NCBI RefSeq assembly: GCF_007754425.1
Contig: NZ_CP037452.1
Coordinates: forward strand, 1 to 64,000
From: Gimesia fumaroli
GTDB lineage: Bacteria; Planctomycetota; Planctomycetia; Planctomycetales; Planctomycetaceae
Direction: 5' to 3'
Length of the DNA: 64,000 nucleotides
Shown: piece by piece, positions 6,217 to 54,603 of the stretch
Layout of the letters: each line of letters starts with the position of its first letter
Position numbering within the stretch: the first letter of the stretch is position 1
The notes under the pieces: model-generated
Database searches by the model: none
What the model was told of the DNA's origin: nothing
The model's input: the letters and a program-made list of their open reading frames with translations, nothing else
Translations under genes and position numbers: made by a program

Positions 6217-7282
6217 CGTTACCGGCTGTCTGAACGGCCGATTCGTTTTTCATAAACTCTCTGAGCAGCATGGTCGCATATACGCCGGAAGGCAACGTGA
6301 ATTCGAATAAAATTCCGGTTTCCGTCTGTTCTATTCTAAATTGATCAGGCCAGATAAGAAAAGGGCGTCGGGCACCTGGAGTCAGTTTTTTAAAGCGAGA
6401 AAAATGAGACATCTCCAGCTCAAATTCACTCAGAACACGCTGTTCCTGTTCCAGCACCGTATCCGTAGGCGGCTTCATTTTCGGACCGAAAATCGGTCCG
6501 GTGATCACCGTTTCTCGATGGTCAAACCGCTCCTGTTCGCGCGCCACGTCTTCCACTACAAAAATACCGCCCGTCTCACAGACCTGCATTACGTCGCCCA
6601 GTTGAACCGTATGCAAGCTCTGATCTGAAACCCGTTCCGACAGAACACGATTAAACAGGCTCGATTGGGCCGCCGACAATGCCAGGCGTTTGAGCGATTT
6701 ATTACGAAAATACTTGCTCGAAACCCGCTCGTCTTTGAGTAGCTTCAGGCCCATCACAAGCGTTTCATTATCCCGGCCCATCCGTTGTGTGCCATAATAG
6801 TTGGGAAAGCCAAACTGCGCAATTTTTTCCTGAATCGCTGACGCTTTCTGAAAAGCATTTTCTGCCGTGTCTCGAATCAAAATCGAAAACCGGTTGCCTC
6901 TAAGATGCCCGGTTTTCAACTTTCGTTCGTGCCGCGTACTCTCCAGAATTTTGATCCCGTCGAAAGAAAAATCAGCCAACAATGGCTCACAATCCGCGGG
7001 TACCGAAACGAACTGCCGTGTGACTGCCCGCCGATCCTTCAATCCGGCGACCCCTATATCGCGAGGATTAAGCCGCAGCAGTTGAGACAGGATTTTAACC
7101 AGAAACTGCGCTGAAACATCCCGTTTCTCCACCCAGAGGAAGAGATGATCTCCTTCCCCCGTAGGCGCATACACGGGAATTTCTTCCACGACGAAGTCTT
7201 CTATCGTCGTTTTTAAAACACCACCGATTCCCGGTAAATCTTCAGTCAGGTAAGGCAGAAACGATTGTTCGGGATCGGGCAT
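6209..7282 (-). CDS. truD: tRNA pseudouridine(13) synthase TruD
   Basis: Converts uridine 13 of certain tRNAs to pseudouridine. The family motif GVAGLKDRRAVTRQ carries the expected catalytic aspartate at residue 83, and NYYGTQRMGRDN is the second TruD signature. The length, 357 residues, is normal. The C-terminal part (PGARRPFLIWP and LPSGVYATMLLREFM) also matches TruD. It starts shortly before the downstream end of a secreted-protein gene on the same strand and overlaps hpt. Confidence 0.94.
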   Translation of the reverse strand: MPDPEQSFLPYLTEDLPGIGGVLKTTIEDFVVEEIPVYAPTGEGDHLFLWVEKRDVSAQFLVKILSQLLRLNPRDIGVAGLKDRRAVTRQFVSVPADCEPLLADFSFDGIKILESTRHERKLKTGHLRGNRFSILIRDTAENAFQKASAIQEKIAQFGFPNYYGTQRMGRDNETLVMGLKLLKDERVSSKYFRNKSLKRLALSAAQSSLFNRVLSERVSDQSLHTVQLGDVMQVCETGGIFVVEDVAREQERFDHRETVITGPIFGPKMKPPTDTVLEQEQRVLSEFELEMSHFSRFKKLTPGARRPFLIWPDQFRIEQTETGILFEFTLPSGVYATMLLREFMKNESAVQTAGNVE

Positions 7283-7288
7283 CGGGTT

Positions 7289-8974
7289 CTATTTTCGGTT
7301 AACAATAGAGAGAGCAATCAGCCGGATAAAGCCTTCCCCCATCTCCAGGTTCAGGCTGGCTGCGTCGGCACTGATTTTAGGATAAAAGGTCAGCAAATCG
7401 CCACCCGAAGCAAATGCAACTTCGGCAGATTCCGTAAAATCCTTGTTCTTCTCGCTTTCTTTCGCCAGAGAAATCAGTGTGCCCATTTTGAATGATAACA
7501 GTAAAACGGAACCCGCTTTTGTCTGTTGGGTATGTTTTTTATTATTCGTAATGGCTTTTTTCAGTAATTCGAGAGAGTCCTCTTCGCCGATCGTCCACCA
7601 GTATTCGTCTGAGCTGCAGCCAATGAAAACCACGGGATTGTCACCAAATAGATCCTTTGCATTTTGGTTTATATTTTTCAATGGGGCGATTTTATGAATG
7701 TGGACCCCCTCGATTTCAGCGACGTTCGCTTGGATTTCCGGTGTGTTTTCTGCCTGTTTAATGATTTCAAATAGTTCCTGCTGGCCTTCATTCATGAGAT
7801 CTCCCTCAGCGATCTTCAGGGAGGCAATCAAGGCCTGTTTCTTATTTTGGGTGGGTTGCATTTGAATATGACCATCCAGCTTTCCGGTTCGGATGGTCGC
7901 TTTGATCGAGTCCAGCATTTTGGCAACTGGTCCGGGATTCTCTTCATCGCCCAATAATACAGGCGGAATATTTGCCGGCGGCTCTTCCAGTAATTCCAGA
8001 ACTTTCTTCTGCACAAGTTCTTTCGGCAACGGAATCAGAAAATAGGTCAGATAATCCGACGTGTTCGCATCGAGGTATGAATACTCGCTTGAGGCTTTCG
8101 CGACCTGTTTTAATTCCTTCTCCAGTTCAGATCCCGGATTGGCTTTGACGCCGAGATTCAGTCGAATCTGTTTGTCTTTTTTCGAAAGCGAATAGCCGAT
8201 GGTCAGGTTATCGCCGTCTTTGATGATCATTTCGAATTGTCGTTGCACGAACTGCATCGTTTGAGTGCGCGACTGAAACCGGACCTCGTCTTCACCCGGC
8301 TGGCGGTCCATCTTCTCATCCATTTTGGCACGAGCCAGATCGATGGCCATCATTCGCATCGGCTCGGGAACGTTTTTCAACAAGAGCGAACCGGCGATGT
8401 CATACTCTTTCGCCAGAGCGCTGGTGTAGTCGTCCGGGTTATAAAACTCGCGGTCTAGCGCTTCGCTTTTGATTTGAAAAAACGCGTAACCGTGAGCCAT
8501 CTTGATGTGTACCGAAAAACTGGGCAGTGCCAGCGTGTAACGATTCTCTTTTCCTTCCACCGGTGACAACACAAAACCGACTTCGTCCAGCGTTTGTGTC
8601 AGTGCCTCCAAGTCCTTCACAGGCACAAAGCCCACAACCGTTGGTTGAGGAGAGATCCCCTCGTTCAAAAAGACAAACACGCCCAGCGGCTTCGTTTTAT
8701 CCAGGCCTTCCAGATTCCGGTATTGTGCCAGAAATCCTTTGATCATTGCCGGGTATTCCGGTTTCTGCACTGTATCAAACAGGTAGTCAATGTCTTCCAG
8801 AACACGGTCGATACTGGCTATGGAAGCCACTGCGATCGGCTGGTTCCAGTCCATTTTATCCTTGCGCGATTCCCGATTTGTATCGGCCTGCGCAAAAGCA
8901 AAGGCACTCACAGCCAGAAAACAGACAGTGAACGTAAATCGTTTGATATAAGAACTTGGAGAGACACGATACAC
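7289..8974 (-). CDS. Secreted protein of unknown function
   Basis: A 561-residue protein with a clear signal peptide (basic start, hydrophobic stretch ending AVSAFAFAQA near residue 30). No catalytic motif was recognised. It resembles the large secreted planctomycete proteins of unknown function, with alternating beta-rich segments and a DYLTYFLIPLP element mid-protein. It lies 6 bases upstream of truD on the same strand, so it may be the first gene of a transcript with truD and hpt. The function is unknown and the location is probably periplasmic. Confidence 0.75.
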   Translation of the reverse strand: MYRVSPSSYIKRFTFTVCFLAVSAFAFAQADTNRESRKDKMDWNQPIAVASIASIDRVLEDIDYLFDTVQKPEYPAMIKGFLAQYRNLEGLDKTKPLGVFVFLNEGISPQPTVVGFVPVKDLEALTQTLDEVGFVLSPVEGKENRYTLALPSFSVHIKMAHGYAFFQIKSEALDREFYNPDDYTSALAKEYDIAGSLLLKNVPEPMRMMAIDLARAKMDEKMDRQPGEDEVRFQSRTQTMQFVQRQFEMIIKDGDNLTIGYSLSKKDKQIRLNLGVKANPGSELEKELKQVAKASSEYSYLDANTSDYLTYFLIPLPKELVQKKVLELLEEPPANIPPVLLGDEENPGPVAKMLDSIKATIRTGKLDGHIQMQPTQNKKQALIASLKIAEGDLMNEGQQELFEIIKQAENTPEIQANVAEIEGVHIHKIAPLKNINQNAKDLFGDNPVVFIGCSSDEYWWTIGEEDSLELLKKAITNNKKHTQQTKAGSVLLLSFKMGTLISLAKESEKNKDFTESAEVAFASGGDLLTFYPKISADAASLNLEMGEGFIRLIALSIVNRK

Positions 8975-47130: not shown

Positions 47131-47370
47131 AAAATCAGACCTGGATGCAGTAGAAAAGAAAGGAAATCAAGGGAACCGAGAATTCGTTAAATAAAACAGG
47201 GGTGTTACCCGTATCATAAACAAAAGTAATTCCTCAGTCGAAACTAAAACGGAAAAAGATGCGAAGCGGAACGGAGTCCGACCAGCGATTCTTACCAGAA
47301 AAGACTCGCAATCGTTTCAAAAATCCGGCTAAAATAGAGTAAAAGTCACATTTTCCAGAGGATGTCAGTT

Positions 47371-48735
47371 ATGGGGAACGCAAACAAAATTCGAAACCAG
47401 GGGCTCTCCCGCCGCGATTTTATGCGACTCTCTGCAATGGGAGTGCTGGGCACGGGAATGTCCGGCTGGTTACGTCGGCTGGCAGCGGAGACCGCGAAGA
47501 ATCCGCAGCGCAAACGCACCTGTATTCTGCTCTGGATGTCGGGTGGTCCCAGTCAATGCGACACGTTCGACTTGAAGCCTGAACACGAAAACGGAGGCCC
47601 CTTCAAACCGATCGACACCGATGTTGCTGGAATTCAGATCTCGGAGCATTTGCCTAAGCTGGCCACCGTGATGAAGCATCTGGTTCCCATTCGTTCGATG
47701 AGTACGAAAGAAGGCGACCATACGCGAGCCACGTATTTACTCCGCACTGGCTATCTTCCCTCTGGACCATTGACGTATCCGACAATGGGTTCGTTATTCA
47801 GCAAAGAACTGGGATCGTCTGATTCCGAGTTGCCGAACTTTGTCAGTATCGCACCGAACCGCACACTCAGTCCGAACGCCTACGGCCCCGGTTTTCTGGG
47901 TCCACAATTTGCACCACTGGTAGTGGGGGAAGGGGCCGGCTTTGTTCAAACGGACGATCAAAATGTCGACGCCGCTTTGAAAGTCAAAAACCTGGAGTTG
48001 CCGCAAGGCATCAGCCGCAAGCAGGCAGACAACCGACTGTCGATCTTGAAAGATCTGGAGAATGACTTCACCGCCACGCATCCGGGGGTTCCCACGAAAA
48101 GCCATCAGTCAGCGTATGAAGCCGCCGTGCGGATGATGCGTTCCAAAGCGATTGAAGCCTTTCAACTCGATCAGGAGCCGGATACTCTGCGCGACGCCTA
48201 CGGTCGCAATCGATTCGGGCAGGGTTGTCTCCTGGCACGGCGCTTGATCGAGCAGGGGGTTCCCTTTGTCGAAGTCTCGTTGAACGGCGTTCAAGGTTCA
48301 AACGCGTTCGGCTGGGATACGCATCAGCAAAACTTCGAGGCGGTTCAAAGTTTGAGCGAAGTTCTCGACCCTGCCTGGGGAACGTTGATGACGGATCTCG
48401 AACAACGGGGGCTTTTAGATTCAACTCTCGTGGTTTGGATGGGCGAATTCGGTCGCACACCCAAGATCAATCAGAACACGGGCCGCGACCATTTCCCCGC
48501 TGCCTGGACCACCGTGCTGGGTGGTGGCGGCATTCGCGGCGGACAGGTCATCGGCAAAACCAGCGACGACGGCATGAAAGTCACCGATCAACCGATCGCG
48601 GTTCCCGATCTGTTGGCCACAATCTGCAAAGCACTGGGCCTCGATCCGGAAAAACAAAACATGTCCAACATCGGCCGCCCGATTCCCCTCGCCGACCACG
48701 GCGCGAAACCAATCGACAAGATTTTAAAGAGCTAA
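47371..48735 (+). CDS. DUF1501 protein with Tat-type N-terminus
   Basis: A 454-residue DUF1501 protein, a group abundant in planctomycetes and distantly related to sulfatases and alkaline phosphatases. The N-terminus RRDFMRLSAMGVLGTGM is a twin-arginine signal. LLWMSGGPSQCDTFDLKP and VWMGEFGRTPKIN are family hallmarks. An ATG at 47362 is also in frame, but the AGAGG Shine-Dalgarno sequence sits 9 bases before 47371 and directly abuts 47362, so 47371 is preferred. The enzymatic role is unknown. Confidence 0.88.
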   Translation: MGNANKIRNQGLSRRDFMRLSAMGVLGTGMSGWLRRLAAETAKNPQRKRTCILLWMSGGPSQCDTFDLKPEHENGGPFKPIDTDVAGIQISEHLPKLATVMKHLVPIRSMSTKEGDHTRATYLLRTGYLPSGPLTYPTMGSLFSKELGSSDSELPNFVSIAPNRTLSPNAYGPGFLGPQFAPLVVGEGAGFVQTDDQNVDAALKVKNLELPQGISRKQADNRLSILKDLENDFTATHPGVPTKSHQSAYEAAVRMMRSKAIEAFQLDQEPDTLRDAYGRNRFGQGCLLARRLIEQGVPFVEVSLNGVQGSNAFGWDTHQQNFEAVQSLSEVLDPAWGTLMTDLEQRGLLDSTLVVWMGEFGRTPKINQNTGRDHFPAAWTTVLGGGGIRGGQVIGKTSDDGMKVTDQPIAVPDLLATICKALGLDPEKQNMSNIGRPIPLADHGAKPIDKILKS

Positions 48736-49085
48736 GGTTCGTTTTAGAGTAATTGTTCGATTCAAAGTGAACTCATGCCGTGTGTCACTAATATGTGTTT
48801 GTTCATGTCATATATTCTAAAATGATATCTAGTCCGATGTTTTATAGTGCTTAACTTATGTTATCGTAATGAAGTTTTAACGAAAGTGACATTTGTTAAT
48901 TTATGTAAACGAACATATATAATGTTGATTTTGCCATAGGCTTATTGTACAAATGAAACGTATTGCATGTGGTCGTATGGGTATACTGATAGGTTCGGTA
49001 GACTTGAATGGAAATACGATATGCAGTTTTAACAAGCAATTATTCATCCAGCCATTTTACTTAACTTTTGAAAGGATGTATTGAG
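48736..49085. other. AT-rich intergenic region
   Basis: About 350 bases, visibly richer in A and T than the flanking genes to the left. No gene was recognised. It opens the AT-rich segment that carries the peptide and C39 peptidase genes and presumably holds their promoter. No clear -35/-10 pair was assigned. Confidence 0.45.
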
Positions 49086-49388
49086 ATGGGAAGTTTAGTG
49101 AGATTTTCTCTTGTTGTTGTTGGATACTTTGCCTTGTTGCCAGCAGGTCAATATTTTTGTTCTGATTCAGTCGATCTCTCTGAAATGAGTCATATCCGGG
49201 GAGGAGCTTGTTCCCACAACTATCAGACGACTGCTCTCGGTGGAACCACATACTGTGGCTGTTCGAGCGACACAGTGAGGGTAAGGGATTTGCAAGGAAC
49301 CGCTGAGGTTTCTATGGTTAGATGTGGTAATAATAATTCCTGTAAGTACCCTACGAATTTTCCGGGAGGTGGCTGTGGCGGCGGCTAA
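49086..49388 (+). CDS. Double-glycine-leader cysteine-rich peptide precursor
   Basis: A 100-residue precursor. Residues 1-25 are hydrophobic with one arginine, like a signal peptide. Residues 29-40 match a double-glycine leader: V29 (-12), E33 (-8), M34 (-7), I37 (-4), G39-G40 (-2, -1). The 60 residues after G40 contain six cysteines (42, 57, 59, 80, 86, 97) and end in a Gly-rich tail (GGGCGGG). AAAGG lies 10 bases before the ATG. A TTG six codons upstream is an alternative start. The partner C39-type peptidase is two genes downstream. The combination of Sec-like and double-glycine signals is unusual. Confidence 0.75.
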   Translation: MGSLVRFSLVVVGYFALLPAGQYFCSDSVDLSEMSHIRGGACSHNYQTTALGGTTYCGCSSDTVRVRDLQGTAEVSMVRCGNNNSCKYPTNFPGGGCGGG

Positions 49389-49460
49389 ACTCACTGATCT
49401 TTTACAGACAAAAGTATTTTATGTAGAGAACAATTTCGCCGACGGTGTTTGTTTTTCTTA

Positions 49461-50816
49461 ATGGAATATTATACCAAGGCCCAAACGGTGGTTTTTTATT
49501 TTATGAAGTTTGTCTTTGCGATGATGCTTGGAGGGGCGATTTTTGCCGCAGTTCTCTTTTCTTCCAAAAGTAACAGATCATTCAATAGTAAAGACGTCAA
49601 TGAGACTCTGCCTTCAGAGGGAGCCAGTGCAGAAAAAGAAGTTTCACCCGACCAGCTTCTCAGATTGTTCCCAACAGAATTAAAGCCCATTGAAACATTC
49701 CCACGAATGCTAGATTTGGTAGAACTCAAAAAAGTAACAAAGCGTTTAGCACCAGTATGGCCTGATTTTAAGATTTATAAAGTAACGCATGCTGTAGAGC
49801 TATGGGGAAGAGGGGTAGAGTTTCCTGCTGAGAATTATCCATCTATCTATGAAGATAATCGCTCACCATATTCAACAAAAGAGTTGTTTCAATGCCTGCT
49901 GAATACTGAAAAGCATGAAGAAATGTCTCATGGCGAACCCCCTTTACTCTTTCGGACTAAGTGGGGAATTGGTGTCAGGAATAATAATCCTCGTACAATC
50001 AGCACAGAAGGAAGCATCAAGCATGAAGACGCCTTACTAAGCATCCTAGCTGAGTCCGGAATGTCTATTTCTGAACCCGTGATCGTTTCAGGAAGATCTT
50101 TTTCAGTTAAAGATTTAGTTCTGAATTCAATGATGGAATTCGATGAAGAGCAAGAGCTTGAATGGACCCTTAATTCTTTAGCCAGATACCTTCAGCCTGG
50201 ACAGCATGCCTGGAAAGGTACAAATGGCAAAGACGTATCGCTGGATATTATAACAAATAAATTGCTCGACCAGAGTTTTGGTAGTGGTGCCTGTTATGGG
50301 ACCCATGCAGTATATTCACTTGCTGTGATCTCAAGATTAGATGAGACATCTTCGTTTTTACTACCTGAAACACGTCGCCGAATCGATCACTATTTTGAGG
50401 AAGTAGTTGAGTCTTTAATCAATACTCAAACAGCAAGAGGGGCGTGGCCCAAATATTGGCATAAGAGTATTTTTTTGACAGACTATGAAAAAAAGAGCAA
50501 TATGCCTTCTTTCAGGCAAGAACCATTTCAAGAGATATTAAGCACAGGACACCACCTCGACTGGATTGCGATTGCTCCTTTGCGATACAGGCCTCCTGTT
50601 GAGTGTATTACAAGAGCCTGTCTCTTTACCTTAAATCATATCAAGCAAGTGCCGACGCCAAAGATCGCTTTTTTTTATATCCAGTTTACACATGCCATTC
50701 GCGGAGTTTGCTTTTTAAGTGGAGTTCACCCAGGAGTACTTGTATTGACGAGTGATCATGATTTAAGAATGTTTAACTTCCCAAGATATACAGTTATTAC
50801 AAAAGCTCCAGAATGA
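49461..50816 (+). CDS. Membrane-anchored protein with QxxxGxW motif
   Basis: A 451-residue protein starting at 49461. One N-terminal transmembrane helix (FYFMKFVFAMMLGGAIFAAV) anchors a soluble domain. Residues 323-329 form a QxxxGxW motif, the QW repeat of terpene-cyclase-like alpha/alpha toroids, but only one copy was seen. C278 lies in ACYGTHAV with H282, and H364-H365 in TGHHLDW could be metal or catalytic residues. No known family was assigned. Its stop overlaps the C39-type peptidase start by 4 bases. A role in modifying or binding the precursor is an inference. Confidence 0.6.
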   Translation: MEYYTKAQTVVFYFMKFVFAMMLGGAIFAAVLFSSKSNRSFNSKDVNETLPSEGASAEKEVSPDQLLRLFPTELKPIETFPRMLDLVELKKVTKRLAPVWPDFKIYKVTHAVELWGRGVEFPAENYPSIYEDNRSPYSTKELFQCLLNTEKHEEMSHGEPPLLFRTKWGIGVRNNNPRTISTEGSIKHEDALLSILAESGMSISEPVIVSGRSFSVKDLVLNSMMEFDEEQELEWTLNSLARYLQPGQHAWKGTNGKDVSLDIITNKLLDQSFGSGACYGTHAVYSLAVISRLDETSSFLLPETRRRIDHYFEEVVESLINTQTARGAWPKYWHKSIFLTDYEKKSNMPSFRQEPFQEILSTGHHLDWIAIAPLRYRPPVECITRACLFTLNHIKQVPTPKIAFFYIQFTHAIRGVCFLSGVHPGVLVLTSDHDLRMFNFPRYTVITKAPE

Positions 50817-51391
50817 GATATATGATTTTTTTACTGACGGCACTCTCATTATCCCTCCCGCAAAAAGAGATTTTGGCAGCAGGCGAGTGGCAGAATGACC
50901 TTTCGTGTGGAGTGAATGCTTTGACATGGTGTGCTAGAATTACGGGTGTGTCTATTAGCAGAAGCCAGGTTGAGGCGATATTTCCTGAACCTGGTCCTAA
51001 TGGTCACAGCTTAAATGAAATAAAACTAGCGGCTCAGTCACTTCTGCTTTATCCAGAAGTGCATAAAGTTTCTCTTGAGGAACTGCAAGAGCTTGAGCCC
51101 CCCTTTATTATTCATGTCAGCATGGGGCGGCTCTCAACTGGACATTATCTTGTCGTGAGTAAAATTACCGGTCAAAGTGATGAAGCTTCTTTTGATATAA
51201 TTGATGGAACATCTGGCGAGAAAGAATATTACTCGAACGCTGGATTATCGCAGATTTTTACCGGGTATGTCGTTGTGATAAATCCGACCCCATTGCATGG
51301 AGTTATTGTTCTCCTTTGGTGTGCGATCATTTTCGCCGTATTATTTATTGCAAGACAAATTTATTTATTACGGCATCGCCCAGTAATCTAG
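50813..51391 (+). CDS. Membrane-anchored C39-type peptidase, extracytoplasmic
   Basis: A 192-residue stand-alone peptidase. Catalytic residues are C32 (in LSCGVNAL), H111 (TGHYLVV) and D131 (DIIDGTSG), with Q27 as the likely oxyanion residue. These fit the C39 bacteriocin-processing family, which cuts after double glycine. Residues 1-23 look like a signal peptide and 161-183 form a transmembrane helix with a basic tail (RHRPV), so the catalytic domain should face the periplasm. C39 domains normally sit at the cytoplasmic N-terminus of ABC exporters, so this arrangement is unusual. It overlaps the upstream gene by 4 bases. Confidence 0.8.
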   Translation: MRYMIFLLTALSLSLPQKEILAAGEWQNDLSCGVNALTWCARITGVSISRSQVEAIFPEPGPNGHSLNEIKLAAQSLLLYPEVHKVSLEELQELEPPFIIHVSMGRLSTGHYLVVSKITGQSDEASFDIIDGTSGEKEYYSNAGLSQIFTGYVVVINPTPLHGVIVLLWCAIIFAVLFIARQIYLLRHRPVI

Positions 51392-51630
51392 TAAGTAAAT
51401 ATCTTGATAACAATGGCTGTCTGGCACCGGTTTTGACCTTGTTTACGTATGGACTGTAGTCGACCGCTAATTTAAGAGGAGGGCTTTATATTTCTCCTGA
51501 GGGTTCGTACTTACTTTTAATCTCCTCCTTTGAAGTGCTTCTTCATTTCCTCAGTGCTGGCGGCTTTTTGATTGTGATCGGAAATCGTGTGAAAAAGAAT
51601 ATTGCTAATAAATGTGATGCAAGGATACCC

Positions 51631-52686
51631 TTGAAGCGGTGCCTGTGTTTGGTATTCTGTATTACTATTGTTCTGACGTGCTGCATTACTCAGGTTCGAG
51701 GCGAGGAAATCGAAAAACCTCAGCTACTCAATCTCGAAGAAATAATTAAGAACATTCAAAGCACGAAGGAGAAATTACTACGGGATCCTCGTGGCATCAG
51801 CATCAAATATATGTTGAGTGCCTTTGAAGATCCGACGCATGATTTTGGACTCAAAGGCAATCTCACAGTCATTAATGTAATCAAGTGGCCTGAATTGTAT
51901 ATCGATGCAACGGGAGTGAACGTAGAAGATTCCAGTCGTTTTCATCGAACCTCCGTTTATAATTTCGTGGATCACACAACCATTGCGTTGGATCAGTCGC
52001 ATCACACAGCGATCTTATACCCCGCGCGATTTCTATTTTCTTCCGCCCATTCAGACTATTACAAATATCTACACTACGCTGAAGGTTACCAGTTTTATCG
52101 TTTAGGAGAACCATTCACTCAGGTGCCCACAGTTCCGGAGTGTTTTTTCAGTGGAGACTATCAAGTGGTGGGAGTCGAAGAGATCGATGGCGAGAAGTGT
52201 GTTCATATTCAACGTAAAGGATATGATGATATTTGGCTTTCTTTGCTGCATGGGTTTTACGTCCATAAAAGAGTGGTAACGTATGGGCCCGATCAGCCCC
52301 GTAAATTTGAGACGCTGGTGCTCAGCTATCAACTCATTGATAAAAAAAATAACTTATGGGTCCCGATGAATATTCAGCGTAAGTTCTATTTTGGTCTTGA
52401 TAATGAAGCATCGAAGCATGATCAGGTGAGACTGGGACTTGAAATTAACGTCACTGATGTTTCGGTTGGTGACATTGATGATTCTATTTTTACATTAGAA
52501 ATTCCAGACGGTTACCATGTTTCTGACTTGCTTGCTGATGAAAAATATTATTACAAGAACCGTCCTTTTGATGAAGTTGTTGCAAAACCTTCGTGGATGA
52601 CCTCCGCGCTGATACTGGTCAATATCCTTGTCGTTCTTTTGGTCATCAGTTTGTTTCTCTATCAGAAAAACAAATCCTCACCCTGA
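51631..52686 (+). CDS. Secreted or anchored protein of the peptide locus
   Basis: A 351-residue protein starting at TTG 51631, which has AAGGA 5 bases upstream and begins a signal peptide (RCLCLVFCITIVLTCC). A GTG at 51535 is in frame but has no ribosome site. The body is beta-rich and resembles LolA/LppX-type lipid-binding folds, with DGYHVSDLLADEKYYYKN near the end. A single transmembrane helix (LILVNILVVLLVISLFLY) closes the protein. It lies 240 bases after the peptidase gene on the same strand. The function is unknown. Confidence 0.55.
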   Translation: MKRCLCLVFCITIVLTCCITQVRGEEIEKPQLLNLEEIIKNIQSTKEKLLRDPRGISIKYMLSAFEDPTHDFGLKGNLTVINVIKWPELYIDATGVNVEDSSRFHRTSVYNFVDHTTIALDQSHHTAILYPARFLFSSAHSDYYKYLHYAEGYQFYRLGEPFTQVPTVPECFFSGDYQVVGVEEIDGEKCVHIQRKGYDDIWLSLLHGFYVHKRVVTYGPDQPRKFETLVLSYQLIDKKNNLWVPMNIQRKFYFGLDNEASKHDQVRLGLEINVTDVSVGDIDDSIFTLEIPDGYHVSDLLADEKYYYKNRPFDEVVAKPSWMTSALILVNILVVLLVISLFLYQKNKSSP

Positions 52687-52795: not shown

Positions 52796-53026
52796 TCAGA
52801 AAACACTGTAAATCACGATCTGAATTGCCAGCGCCAGACAGGCCCAGATTTTCAGATTCTGGTACCAGGGAGCCGTTTCCGAAGGTGTTGTATTTTCTTT
52901 CGGCAGTCGCACGACCCAGATCAATACGGCGATCAGCGTTCCCAGAAACAGGGCCCGTACACACCACAGCGGAATCGGAACCACCAACTCGCGAATGAAA
53001 TTGCCAATGTGATGCAACGGCGTCAT
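52796..53026 (-). CDS. Small membrane protein coupled to a symporter
   Basis: A 76-residue protein with two hydrophobic helices (VRALFLGTLIAVLIWVVRL and IWACLALAIQIVIYSVF). Its ATG overlaps the end of the upstream symporter gene by 4 bases, which supports it as real and co-translated. No family was recognised. It may be an accessory subunit of the transporter. Confidence 0.65.
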   Translation of the reverse strand: MTPLHHIGNFIRELVVPIPLWCVRALFLGTLIAVLIWVVRLPKENTTPSETAPWYQNLKIWACLALAIQIVIYSVF

Positions 53027-54603
53027 GCTTGCCCCCGGTTTGGTTTGAGGCTGAAGACCAGGCCTTCAATTTTTTCGGCCGGCTCTGGTTTGGTGAGAAA
53101 ACTGATGATGACAATCAACGAGAACGAGACCACAAAAGCCCAGATCGAAAAATACAGAAACGGTTCGGAAATCTGGAACAGAGGATCGATTCCCAGTGCG
53201 GTATAAACGGGTTCCTGATTCAACGTGAATAGCGTGATTGAAAAACAGACTCCGACAATGAAGCCGATCAACGCGGCGATTCCGGTGGCCCGTTTCCAGA
53301 GTAGCCCCGTCAATAAAATCGCAAACGCGGGTCCCTGGAAGAACGCCATCAAGGTCTGGAAGATCGTATAAATGCCTTCGCTGCGGGTCATCAGGAAGAA
53401 CGAAAACCCAATCGCCCAGAGCACCAGCAGAAACGTCACGCCGCGACCGATTTTCAACAGCGATTCATCCGTCGCGTCTCGGCGATAAAAGCGTTTATAA
53501 AAATCATTGGTCACGATGGTCGATGCCGAGTTCAGATAGGAGTCGATGCTCGACATCAGTGCCGCCAGAAACGCTGCCAGGAACAGACCTTTCAAACCGA
53601 CTGGCAGCAGGTGCGAAATCAATTCGGGAAATGCTTGATCGCCGTCGGTAAGTTCCGGGAATTTCACAAACGCGATCAAGCCGGGTACAGCCACGATGAC
53701 GGGAATCAGATTCTTCAATAACGCCCCCCAGACATAGGCGGCTTTTGCATCGAATTCACTCTTCGCCCCCAGCGAGCGTTGGACAATCGCCTGGTTGCCG
53801 ATCCAGTAGGCAGGGCTCAAAATTAAAGCCAGACCGAAGAAAATCCCCGTCCAGGGGAACGGCGTATCTGCATCCGCGGGTAGGATGAGTGAAGTATGCG
53901 AGACCTGCTCCGCCTCTCCGTTCTCCGCGAGTTCTTTCTGTAGTTGGATCTGTTCCTGCTTCTCAATGGCGGCCTGAAACTCTTTGACGCCTCCCAGGTC
54001 AATGACTCCCAGCACCAGGACCAGCAGACAGCCGCCAATCATGATCACGCATTGAATCATGTCGGTATACACGACGGCCGCGAGTCCCCCGGAAATCGTG
54101 TAGACGCCCACCAGAAACGCCGTCAGATAAATGCAGGCATTCACGGTCATTCCCAGATGCACGTGCATCATTTTGGCCGACGCCAGCAGCATGATGCCCA
54201 GGTTGCATGCCATGAAAATGATCCAGCAGATCGCCAGCGCCGAACGTACGGCGACGTTAAAGCGGCGTTCCATATACTCGGGAATCGTCGTCACTCCGCT
54301 CCGCCAGAAAAAGGGGATGAACACAAACGCGGCGATGATCATCGCGGGCACGCAGCCGATCCATTCAAAATTTGCAACCGCCAGGCCATGCTGATGGGCG
54401 GCACCACCAGTTCCCACAATATCGACGGCACCAATGTCGGTCGCCACCAGCGACATGCCGATGGCCCACCAGGGGAGACGTCGCCCGGCCAGAAAGTAAT
54501 CCGAGCCGGTTTTGATTTTGGAACCGATATAAAGTCCCAGTGCTAATGTTCCCATCAGATATGCAGCGATGACGGCAAAATCGAGGAACGACAGGGTCTG
54601 CAT
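53023..54603 (-). CDS. Sodium/solute symporter
   Basis: A 526-residue SSS-family transporter with 13-14 predicted helices. The N-terminal GSDYFLAGRRLPWWAIGMSL and VATDIGAVDIVGTGGAA segments and the later ALMSSIDSYLNSASTIVTND are typical. The substrate, often a sugar or amino acid, cannot be read from the sequence. It overlaps the 76-residue gene by 4 bases. Confidence 0.9.
   Translation of the reverse strand: MQTLSFLDFAVIAAYLMGTLALGLYIGSKIKTGSDYFLAGRRLPWWAIGMSLVATDIGAVDIVGTGGAAHQHGLAVANFEWIGCVPAMIIAAFVFIPFFWRSGVTTIPEYMERRFNVAVRSALAICWIIFMACNLGIMLLASAKMMHVHLGMTVNACIYLTAFLVGVYTISGGLAAVVYTDMIQCVIMIGGCLLVLVLGVIDLGGVKEFQAAIEKQEQIQLQKELAENGEAEQVSHTSLILPADADTPFPWTGIFFGLALILSPAYWIGNQAIVQRSLGAKSEFDAKAAYVWGALLKNLIPVIVAVPGLIAFVKFPELTDGDQAFPELISHLLPVGLKGLFLAAFLAALMSSIDSYLNSASTIVTNDFYKRFYRRDATDESLLKIGRGVTFLLVLWAIGFSFFLMTRSEGIYTIFQTLMAFFQGPAFAILLTGLLWKRATGIAALIGFIVGVCFSITLFTLNQEPVYTALGIDPLFQISEPFLYFSIWAFVVSFSLIVIISFLTKPEPAEKIEGLVFSLKPNRGQA

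Follow-up and report, generated by a model that had tools for sequence, protein, structure and literature searches.

A cassette of four genes in the first 64 kb of the Gimesia fumaroli genome (one contig of 7.70 Mb, NZ_CP037452.1; this stretch is called the window below) probably secretes a cysteine-rich peptide without an ATP-binding cassette (ABC) exporter, the precursor being exported by a Sec-type route and then cleaved by a C39 peptidase on the outer side of the membrane. The genes code for a small precursor with a double-glycine (GG) leader, a toroid-like helical protein, a stand-alone C39-type peptidase, and a LolA-like protein. What the sequences themselves contribute to this reading is the leader, the catalytic triad, the C39 fold, the recurrent pairing of precursor and peptidase genes, and a genome with no gene for a C39-ABC exporter.

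The precursor gene begins with an ATG at position 49086, preceded by AAAGGA 9 nt upstream, and TTG 49068 is a possible alternative start. The leader ends with SVDLSEMSHIRGG and has V at −12, E at −8, M at −7, I at −4, and GG at −2/−1, which fits the double-glycine leader pattern. In the LahT–leader structure (PMC6363468), leader residues −4, −7, and −12 occupy hydrophobic pockets, and I, M, and V stand at these positions in the window leader. An earlier note on this DNA, made from the sequence alone, had described a canonical double-glycine leader behind a Sec-like N-terminus, followed by a six-cysteine peptide of about 60 residues. All three features were recovered: the N-terminus is hydrophobic (best 11-residue mean of 2.37, by the Kyte–Doolittle scale only), and the core counts 60 amino acids with 6 Cys. 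No NCBIfam match, and no Pfam match above its cut-off, was found for the window precursor. Membership in a known peptide family was considered and rejected, as ten relatives gave only two chance-like NCBIfam matches; a further relative, in locus L078, scored 19.8 bits with the CCRG-2 model of ribosomally synthesised and post-translationally modified peptides (RiPPs), below the cut-off of 24.

The C39 protein (192 amino acids) matches PF03412 with an E-value of 8e-13 (48.8 bits versus a cut-off of 22), and C32, H111, and D131, named as the triad in the earlier note, are invariant among 11 aligned C39 proteins. In the AlphaFold model, built from a two-row alignment (mean predicted local distance difference test score, pLDDT, of 76), residues 161–187 form a helix, corresponding to the C-terminal transmembrane helix proposed earlier, while residues 1–27 are disordered, with pLDDT below 50. 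The top Foldseek matches in the PDB are the peptidase domains of ComA, PCAT1, and LahT, consistent with a C39 fold; HlyB and a C39-like domain also rank high. The protein has a hydrophobic N-terminus, and its C-terminal helix is preceded by an uncharged approach and followed by a basic tail. Because of this signal-like start, the uncharged approach, and the basic tail, read with the positive-inside rule, the C39 domain is predicted to lie outside the cytoplasm, so that the predicted topology agrees with the placement of the active site in the earlier note.

The pairing of such peptidases with GG precursors was assessed for 70 C39 genes of the family Planctomycetaceae in open frames of less than 650 amino acids, 12 from a first round (seven of them already inspected when the criteria were fixed) and 58 found by searching 170 family genomes with a profile; at least one of the 70, L199, resembles an exporter truncated at a contig end, and three genes touch a contig end. 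A partner was defined as an open reading frame (ORF) on the same strand within 3.5 kb, with a hydrophobic N-terminus, a GG/GA/GS/GQ leader pattern, and at least six Cys. The controls comprised 88 one-strand stretches of 7.6 kb, drawn from 22 regions whose positions in four genomes were chosen arbitrarily, and all p values are nominal because the genomes are related.

A partner was present at 33 of 70 C39 genes, recognised in 18 cases with the strict 12-residue pattern and in 15 with a relaxed one, versus none in the 88 control stretches (p 9e-15). These control stretches contained 8 signal-like cysteine-rich ORFs. On the opposite strand, an ORF passing the same criterion occurred at a single C39 gene out of 70. 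A further 16 C39 genes had only a signal-like cysteine-rich ORF nearby, and 21 had nothing. When the comparison was confined to loci with a signal-like cysteine-rich ORF, the leader pattern was present in 33 of 49, versus 0 of 8 in the controls (p 4e-4), and 23 of the 58 genes picked by C39 similarity alone had a partner. Control sequence totalling 440 kb held a single instance of the strict combination of a signal-like N-terminus and a 12-residue leader, and this instance had only 5 Cys. Therefore, precursor/C39 pairs in which the GG leader and the Sec-like N-terminus co-occur, sought elsewhere at the suggestion of the earlier note, do exist within the family. Among the matches listed for other planctomycete families, none of 45 C39 loci had a partner (55 loci were collected, and ten with no match in the profile used were dropped); the pairing is described here for the family, with no claim for the whole phylum.

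The aligned leaders of the partner ORFs, 39 in the list, display the C39 recognition pattern, and GG, GA, GS, or GQ is kept at the predicted cleavage position, the G at −2 being required by the search pattern. Precursors may also occur in tandem, with three copies at L184:3327–4755 and two at L088:2924–3807; within these arrays the leaders are near-identical and end with KGA or KGG, and the six-cysteine cores diverge. In locus L074, the leaders of two precursors (6311–6712 and 8215–8616) end with GQ right before a Cys, a possible variant of the cleavage site.

Among the 70 family C39 proteins, a hydrophobic stretch precedes the C39 domain in 67 and a helix follows it in 40; in partner loci, the hydrophobic N-terminus is present in 34 of 34 proteins and the helix in 24. 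Several C39 genes have unusual domain compositions. In L073 (6612–7952) and L075 (4891–6078), the first C39 domain is followed by another, C39-like one that lacks the active-site Cys, forming an active-plus-dead tandem. Weak NCBIfam matches indicate fusions of C39 to an OS_HP2-like domain in L087 (3859–5643) and L078 (4878–6452), and to a rhodanese-like domain in L088 (4427–5656).

In the G. fumaroli genome, with a completeness estimate of 99.92%, PF03412 matches four open frames of 204, 187, 611, and 413 amino acids; all of them are too short, and the genome therefore encodes no C39-ABC exporter. All four matches have a partner, by the criterion at the window, L077, and L088 (with its two tandem precursors), and by eye at L087, a real-looking locus missed by the relaxed pattern, where the leader LSAAEMRVTLGA belongs to an ORF with 16 Cys located 1.6 kb from the C39 gene. 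In line with the earlier note, no ABC transporter was noticed by eye among the ORFs at 44–57 kb of the window, the span inspected.

The co-occurrence in the family, the predicted topology, and the lack of a C39-ABC exporter together favour the sequence of events proposed in the earlier note, Sec export followed by C39 cleavage on the outside. In this mechanism, the export by Sec, the topology, the cleavage and where it occurs, the disulfides, the roles of the partner proteins, and the accessory use of the peptide are all inferred. The precursor would leave the cell via the general secretory route by means of its hydrophobic N-terminus. The C39 peptidase would be exported as well and stay anchored through its C-terminal helix, so that its active site lies on the outside of the cytoplasmic membrane, where it could recognise the GG leader by the hydrophobic residues at −12, −7, and −4 and cut after GG. 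The cut would release the 60-residue core, whose six cysteines may form disulfides, and the other two proteins, the toroid-like and the LolA-like one, for which an outward orientation is likewise predicted, may act on the peptide by handling or modifying it, or may protect the producing cell.

Several observations weigh against this reading. Classical C39 domains carry a Gln six residues before the catalytic Cys, the proposed oxyanion residue; the window C39 has Trp at this position, and the Gln is missing in nearly all partner loci, so that C39 activity is not certain. This Gln is present in 11 of the 70 family C39 proteins, ten of them in loci with no partner and one in a partner locus, so that the GG-partnered C39 class is the one devoid of it. 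No helix follows the domain in 10 of 34 C39 genes in partner loci, and the signal peptides of the system were called from hydrophobicity alone. By the criterion used, 37 of the 70 family C39 genes have no partner, and the relaxed pattern passes at least one locus, L079, that looks spurious. The core sequences are barely alike, and the search of 150 genomes revealed, apart from the window's own sequence, one convincing precursor relative (E < 0.001). It is found in genome G140 (44% identity, E 6.7e-10), where it adjoins the closest toroid-like relative of that genome; the remaining weaker matches, many with internal stops, were not used.

The chromosomal site in related genomes bears on the nature of the product. 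In the window, the four cassette genes lie on the + strand between a DUF1501 gene (47362–48735) and an opposite-strand gene (53023–54603), which we take to encode a symporter-like protein, so that the two flanking genes are 4.3 kb apart. Of 16 other genomes of the genus, 12 have these two genes side by side, with a gap of 234 to 2,000 bases, and the sites of 8 of these 12 relatives were read. The precursor, toroid-like, and C39 genes are absent from all 8 sites, five of which hold none of the four genes, and the precursor was absent from all 10 other same-genus genomes sampled; a LolA-like gene stands alone at the same site in three relatives (L268, L270, and L271; 69–77% DNA identity). From these 8 sites it follows that the precursor, toroid-like, and C39 genes either came in as an accessory insertion or have been lost elsewhere. 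GC content is 32% in the 350 bases upstream, 41–47% in the cassette genes, and 54–56% in both flanking genes; being patchy and AT-rich, the cassette is probably accessory.

Such a distribution is unusual for a core structural protein, and together with the small size of the cysteine-rich window core (60 residues) it makes it possible but rather unlikely that the same route delivers a surface or matrix component and not a diffusible toxin or signal. Such a product would be in keeping with the role of FapD, a C39 peptidase described in PMC5557850 as serving the secretion of amyloid fibres, with the length of the partner cores, at least 18 of the 39 listed having at least 100 residues, and with the LolA-like partners, which suggest work in the envelope.

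We consider it improbable that the C39 domain, while extracytoplasmic, does not cut at all and acts as a leader-binding chaperone like the C39-like domain of HlyB, the only cut being made by signal peptidase. The absence of Gln at −6, the second C39-like domains devoid of the active-site Cys in L073 and L075, and the high Foldseek ranks of HlyB and a C39-like domain would suit such a function; they are outweighed by the invariance of C, H, and D in the 11 aligned proteins, the residues kept at the cleavage position, the need of FapD for its Cys in the periplasm (PMC5557850), and the LahT structure, in which Gln sits 4.3 Å from the oxyanion position (PMC6363468). It is very unlikely that the hydrophobic N-terminus belongs to an unusual GG leader and that an unlinked peptidase-containing ABC exporter, the usual reader of GG leaders (PMC10885120), carries out both its cytoplasmic cleavage and the export, with the nearby C39 serving another substrate, since the genome looks complete, has no PF03412 match in a frame longer than 611 amino acids, and the pairing is local and strand-specific.

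The features of the cassette are listed in Table 1. The stop codon of the toroid-like gene and the start codon of the C39 gene overlap (ATGA), which couples the two genes.

Table 1. Features of the peptide cassette (positions in the window)
Feature	Positions	Strand	Basis
Upstream region, likely promoter of the cassette	48736..49085		AT-rich, 32% GC; promoter role putative
Precursor gene, 100 amino acids: signal-like N-terminus, double-glycine leader, cysteine-rich core	49086..49388	+	ORF and motifs
40-residue leader ending GG	49086..49205	+	V-12, E-8, M-7, I-4
Predicted mature peptide: core of 60 residues, six of them cysteines	49206..49385	+	Leader alignment
Toroid-like helical protein with N-terminal membrane anchor	49461..50816	+	ATG 49461, TTG 49449 possible; no Pfam family
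Stand-alone C39 peptidase, 192 amino acids, triad C32/H111/D131	50813..51391	+	PF03412, alignment, fold
Membrane helix near the C39 C-terminus (residues 161–187), with a basic tail after it	51293..51373	+	AlphaFold model, sequence
LolA-like exported protein with C-terminal membrane helix (tentative label)	51535..52686	+	GTG 51589 likely start

As to gene content, the earlier note was right about the precursor and the C39 gene, and overlooked two further genes that recur at C39 loci, the toroid-like gene between them and the LolA-like one farther downstream. Among 70 loci with a C39 match, in this count including one ABC exporter (L225), the LolA-like gene was found at 17 versus 0 of 22 control regions (p 0.01), and the toroid-like gene at 10 versus 0 of 22 (p 0.11, not significant); some matches arise by construction because the sequences built the profiles (the window and L072 for both genes, and L073, L075, and L077 for the LolA-like one). 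All four parts occur together at the window, L072, L073, L074, L075, L169, and L172.

The structure model of the toroid-like protein is confident (pLDDT 82) and has a helix at residues 2–43. Foldseek places transcobalamin and intrinsic factor first, the best match being 2bb5 (E 0.04, template modelling score 0.34), and no match reaches E ≤ 0.001. Assignment to a known enzyme was rejected: there was no Pfam match, only a chance NCBIfam match, and a PDB profile search gave only transcobalamin II, with E 0.73. A LanC-like or prenyltransferase-like role would be speculation. Toroid-like relatives are present in 143 of 150 family genomes and are not specific to the C39 system; a C39 gene lies near only one (L266) of 20 named loci found by the toroid-like search. 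Being common in the family without C39, the toroid-like protein was probably recruited to the cassette. For the LolA-like protein, no Pfam match was found, and its one weak PDB profile match is an outer membrane lipoprotein-sorting protein (E 0.03). A protective function for the producer is possible because this gene stands alone at the same site in three relatives, a situation that an independent passenger would explain as well as a protection gene left orphaned. Taken as a whole, the data allow only a tentative and, in our view, doubtful proposal of an ABC-free route in a planctomycete family, by which Sec-exported, cysteine-rich, RiPP-like GG precursors would be bound, folded or modified, and trimmed wholly outside the cytoplasm by a membrane-tethered group of proteins, namely the C39 peptidase, the toroid-like protein, perhaps an extracytoplasmic modifying enzyme, and the LolA-like protein, possibly for self-protection.

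GG leaders are usually read as signals for peptidase-containing ABC transporters (PCATs), and peptide mining mostly sets out from such exporters or from modifying enzymes. If the Sec-plus-C39 route is real, a large set of planctomycete cysteine-rich secreted peptides has been overlooked so far, and extracytoplasmic C39 peptidases, of which FapD is the best known, gain a clear and directly testable substrate class.

In the textbook double-glycine systems, the leader is cut on the inside by the exporter itself, via its cytoplasmic C39 domain. ComA, PCAT1, and LahT share with the window cassette the C39 fold and triad, and a leader that is hydrophobic at −12, −7, and −4 and ends with GG; unlike the PCATs, the window C39 has 192 amino acids with no ABC or transport domain, a signal-like N-terminus, and a domain predicted outside. 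According to a 2023 review of leader proteases, C39 leader removal goes through PCATs (PMC10885120). The premise of the earlier note that known C39 peptidases are cytoplasmic domains of ABC exporters does not hold, since FapD of the Pseudomonas functional amyloid system carries a Sec signal peptide and works as a C39 peptidase in the periplasm, where it needs its Cys (PMC5557850). FapD resembles the window C39 in being a stand-alone C39 peptidase, the window protein having a hydrophobic N-terminus and a C-terminal helix with a basic tail. The Fap proteins have no canonical C39 (GG) site, and the target of FapD was unclear (PMC5557850, PMC6173800). The window C39 does not match the FapD model NF058616 at E ≤ 1. 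FilB (NF050078), of a putative pilus system, is also a short C39 protein, and its model matches L208 and L204 but not the window C39. These two loci of the same family are FapD/FilB-like below the curated cut-offs, keep Gln at −6, and have no GG partner.

C39 proteins of the PA2778 family are paired with a PA2779 family partner, which has a signal peptide and a GG motif. This family (NF033920) resembles the window cassette in that a short C39 protein goes together with an exported partner that is small and has a GG-like site; the window C39 has no match to the NF033920 model at E ≤ 1. In PA2778-like loci L106 and L116, scoring below the curated cut-off, the partner, unlike the window precursor, ends with a membrane helix and lacks a cysteine-rich core. 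These signal-like GG-site proteins with a C-terminal hydrophobic helix (L116:4790–5134 and L106:4682–5428) adjoin the PA2778-like C39 genes and may represent another type of GG substrate that is exported. Among the open PMC papers listed in the searches made, none dealt with planctomycete GG precursors that are exported by Sec and paired with a stand-alone C39 peptidase. An extracytoplasmic C39 peptidase is already known from FapD; the window C39 would act like a leader peptidase of the C39 type relocated to the outside, and what would be new is its substrate class, for which the FapD, FilB, and PA2778 systems offer no demonstration.
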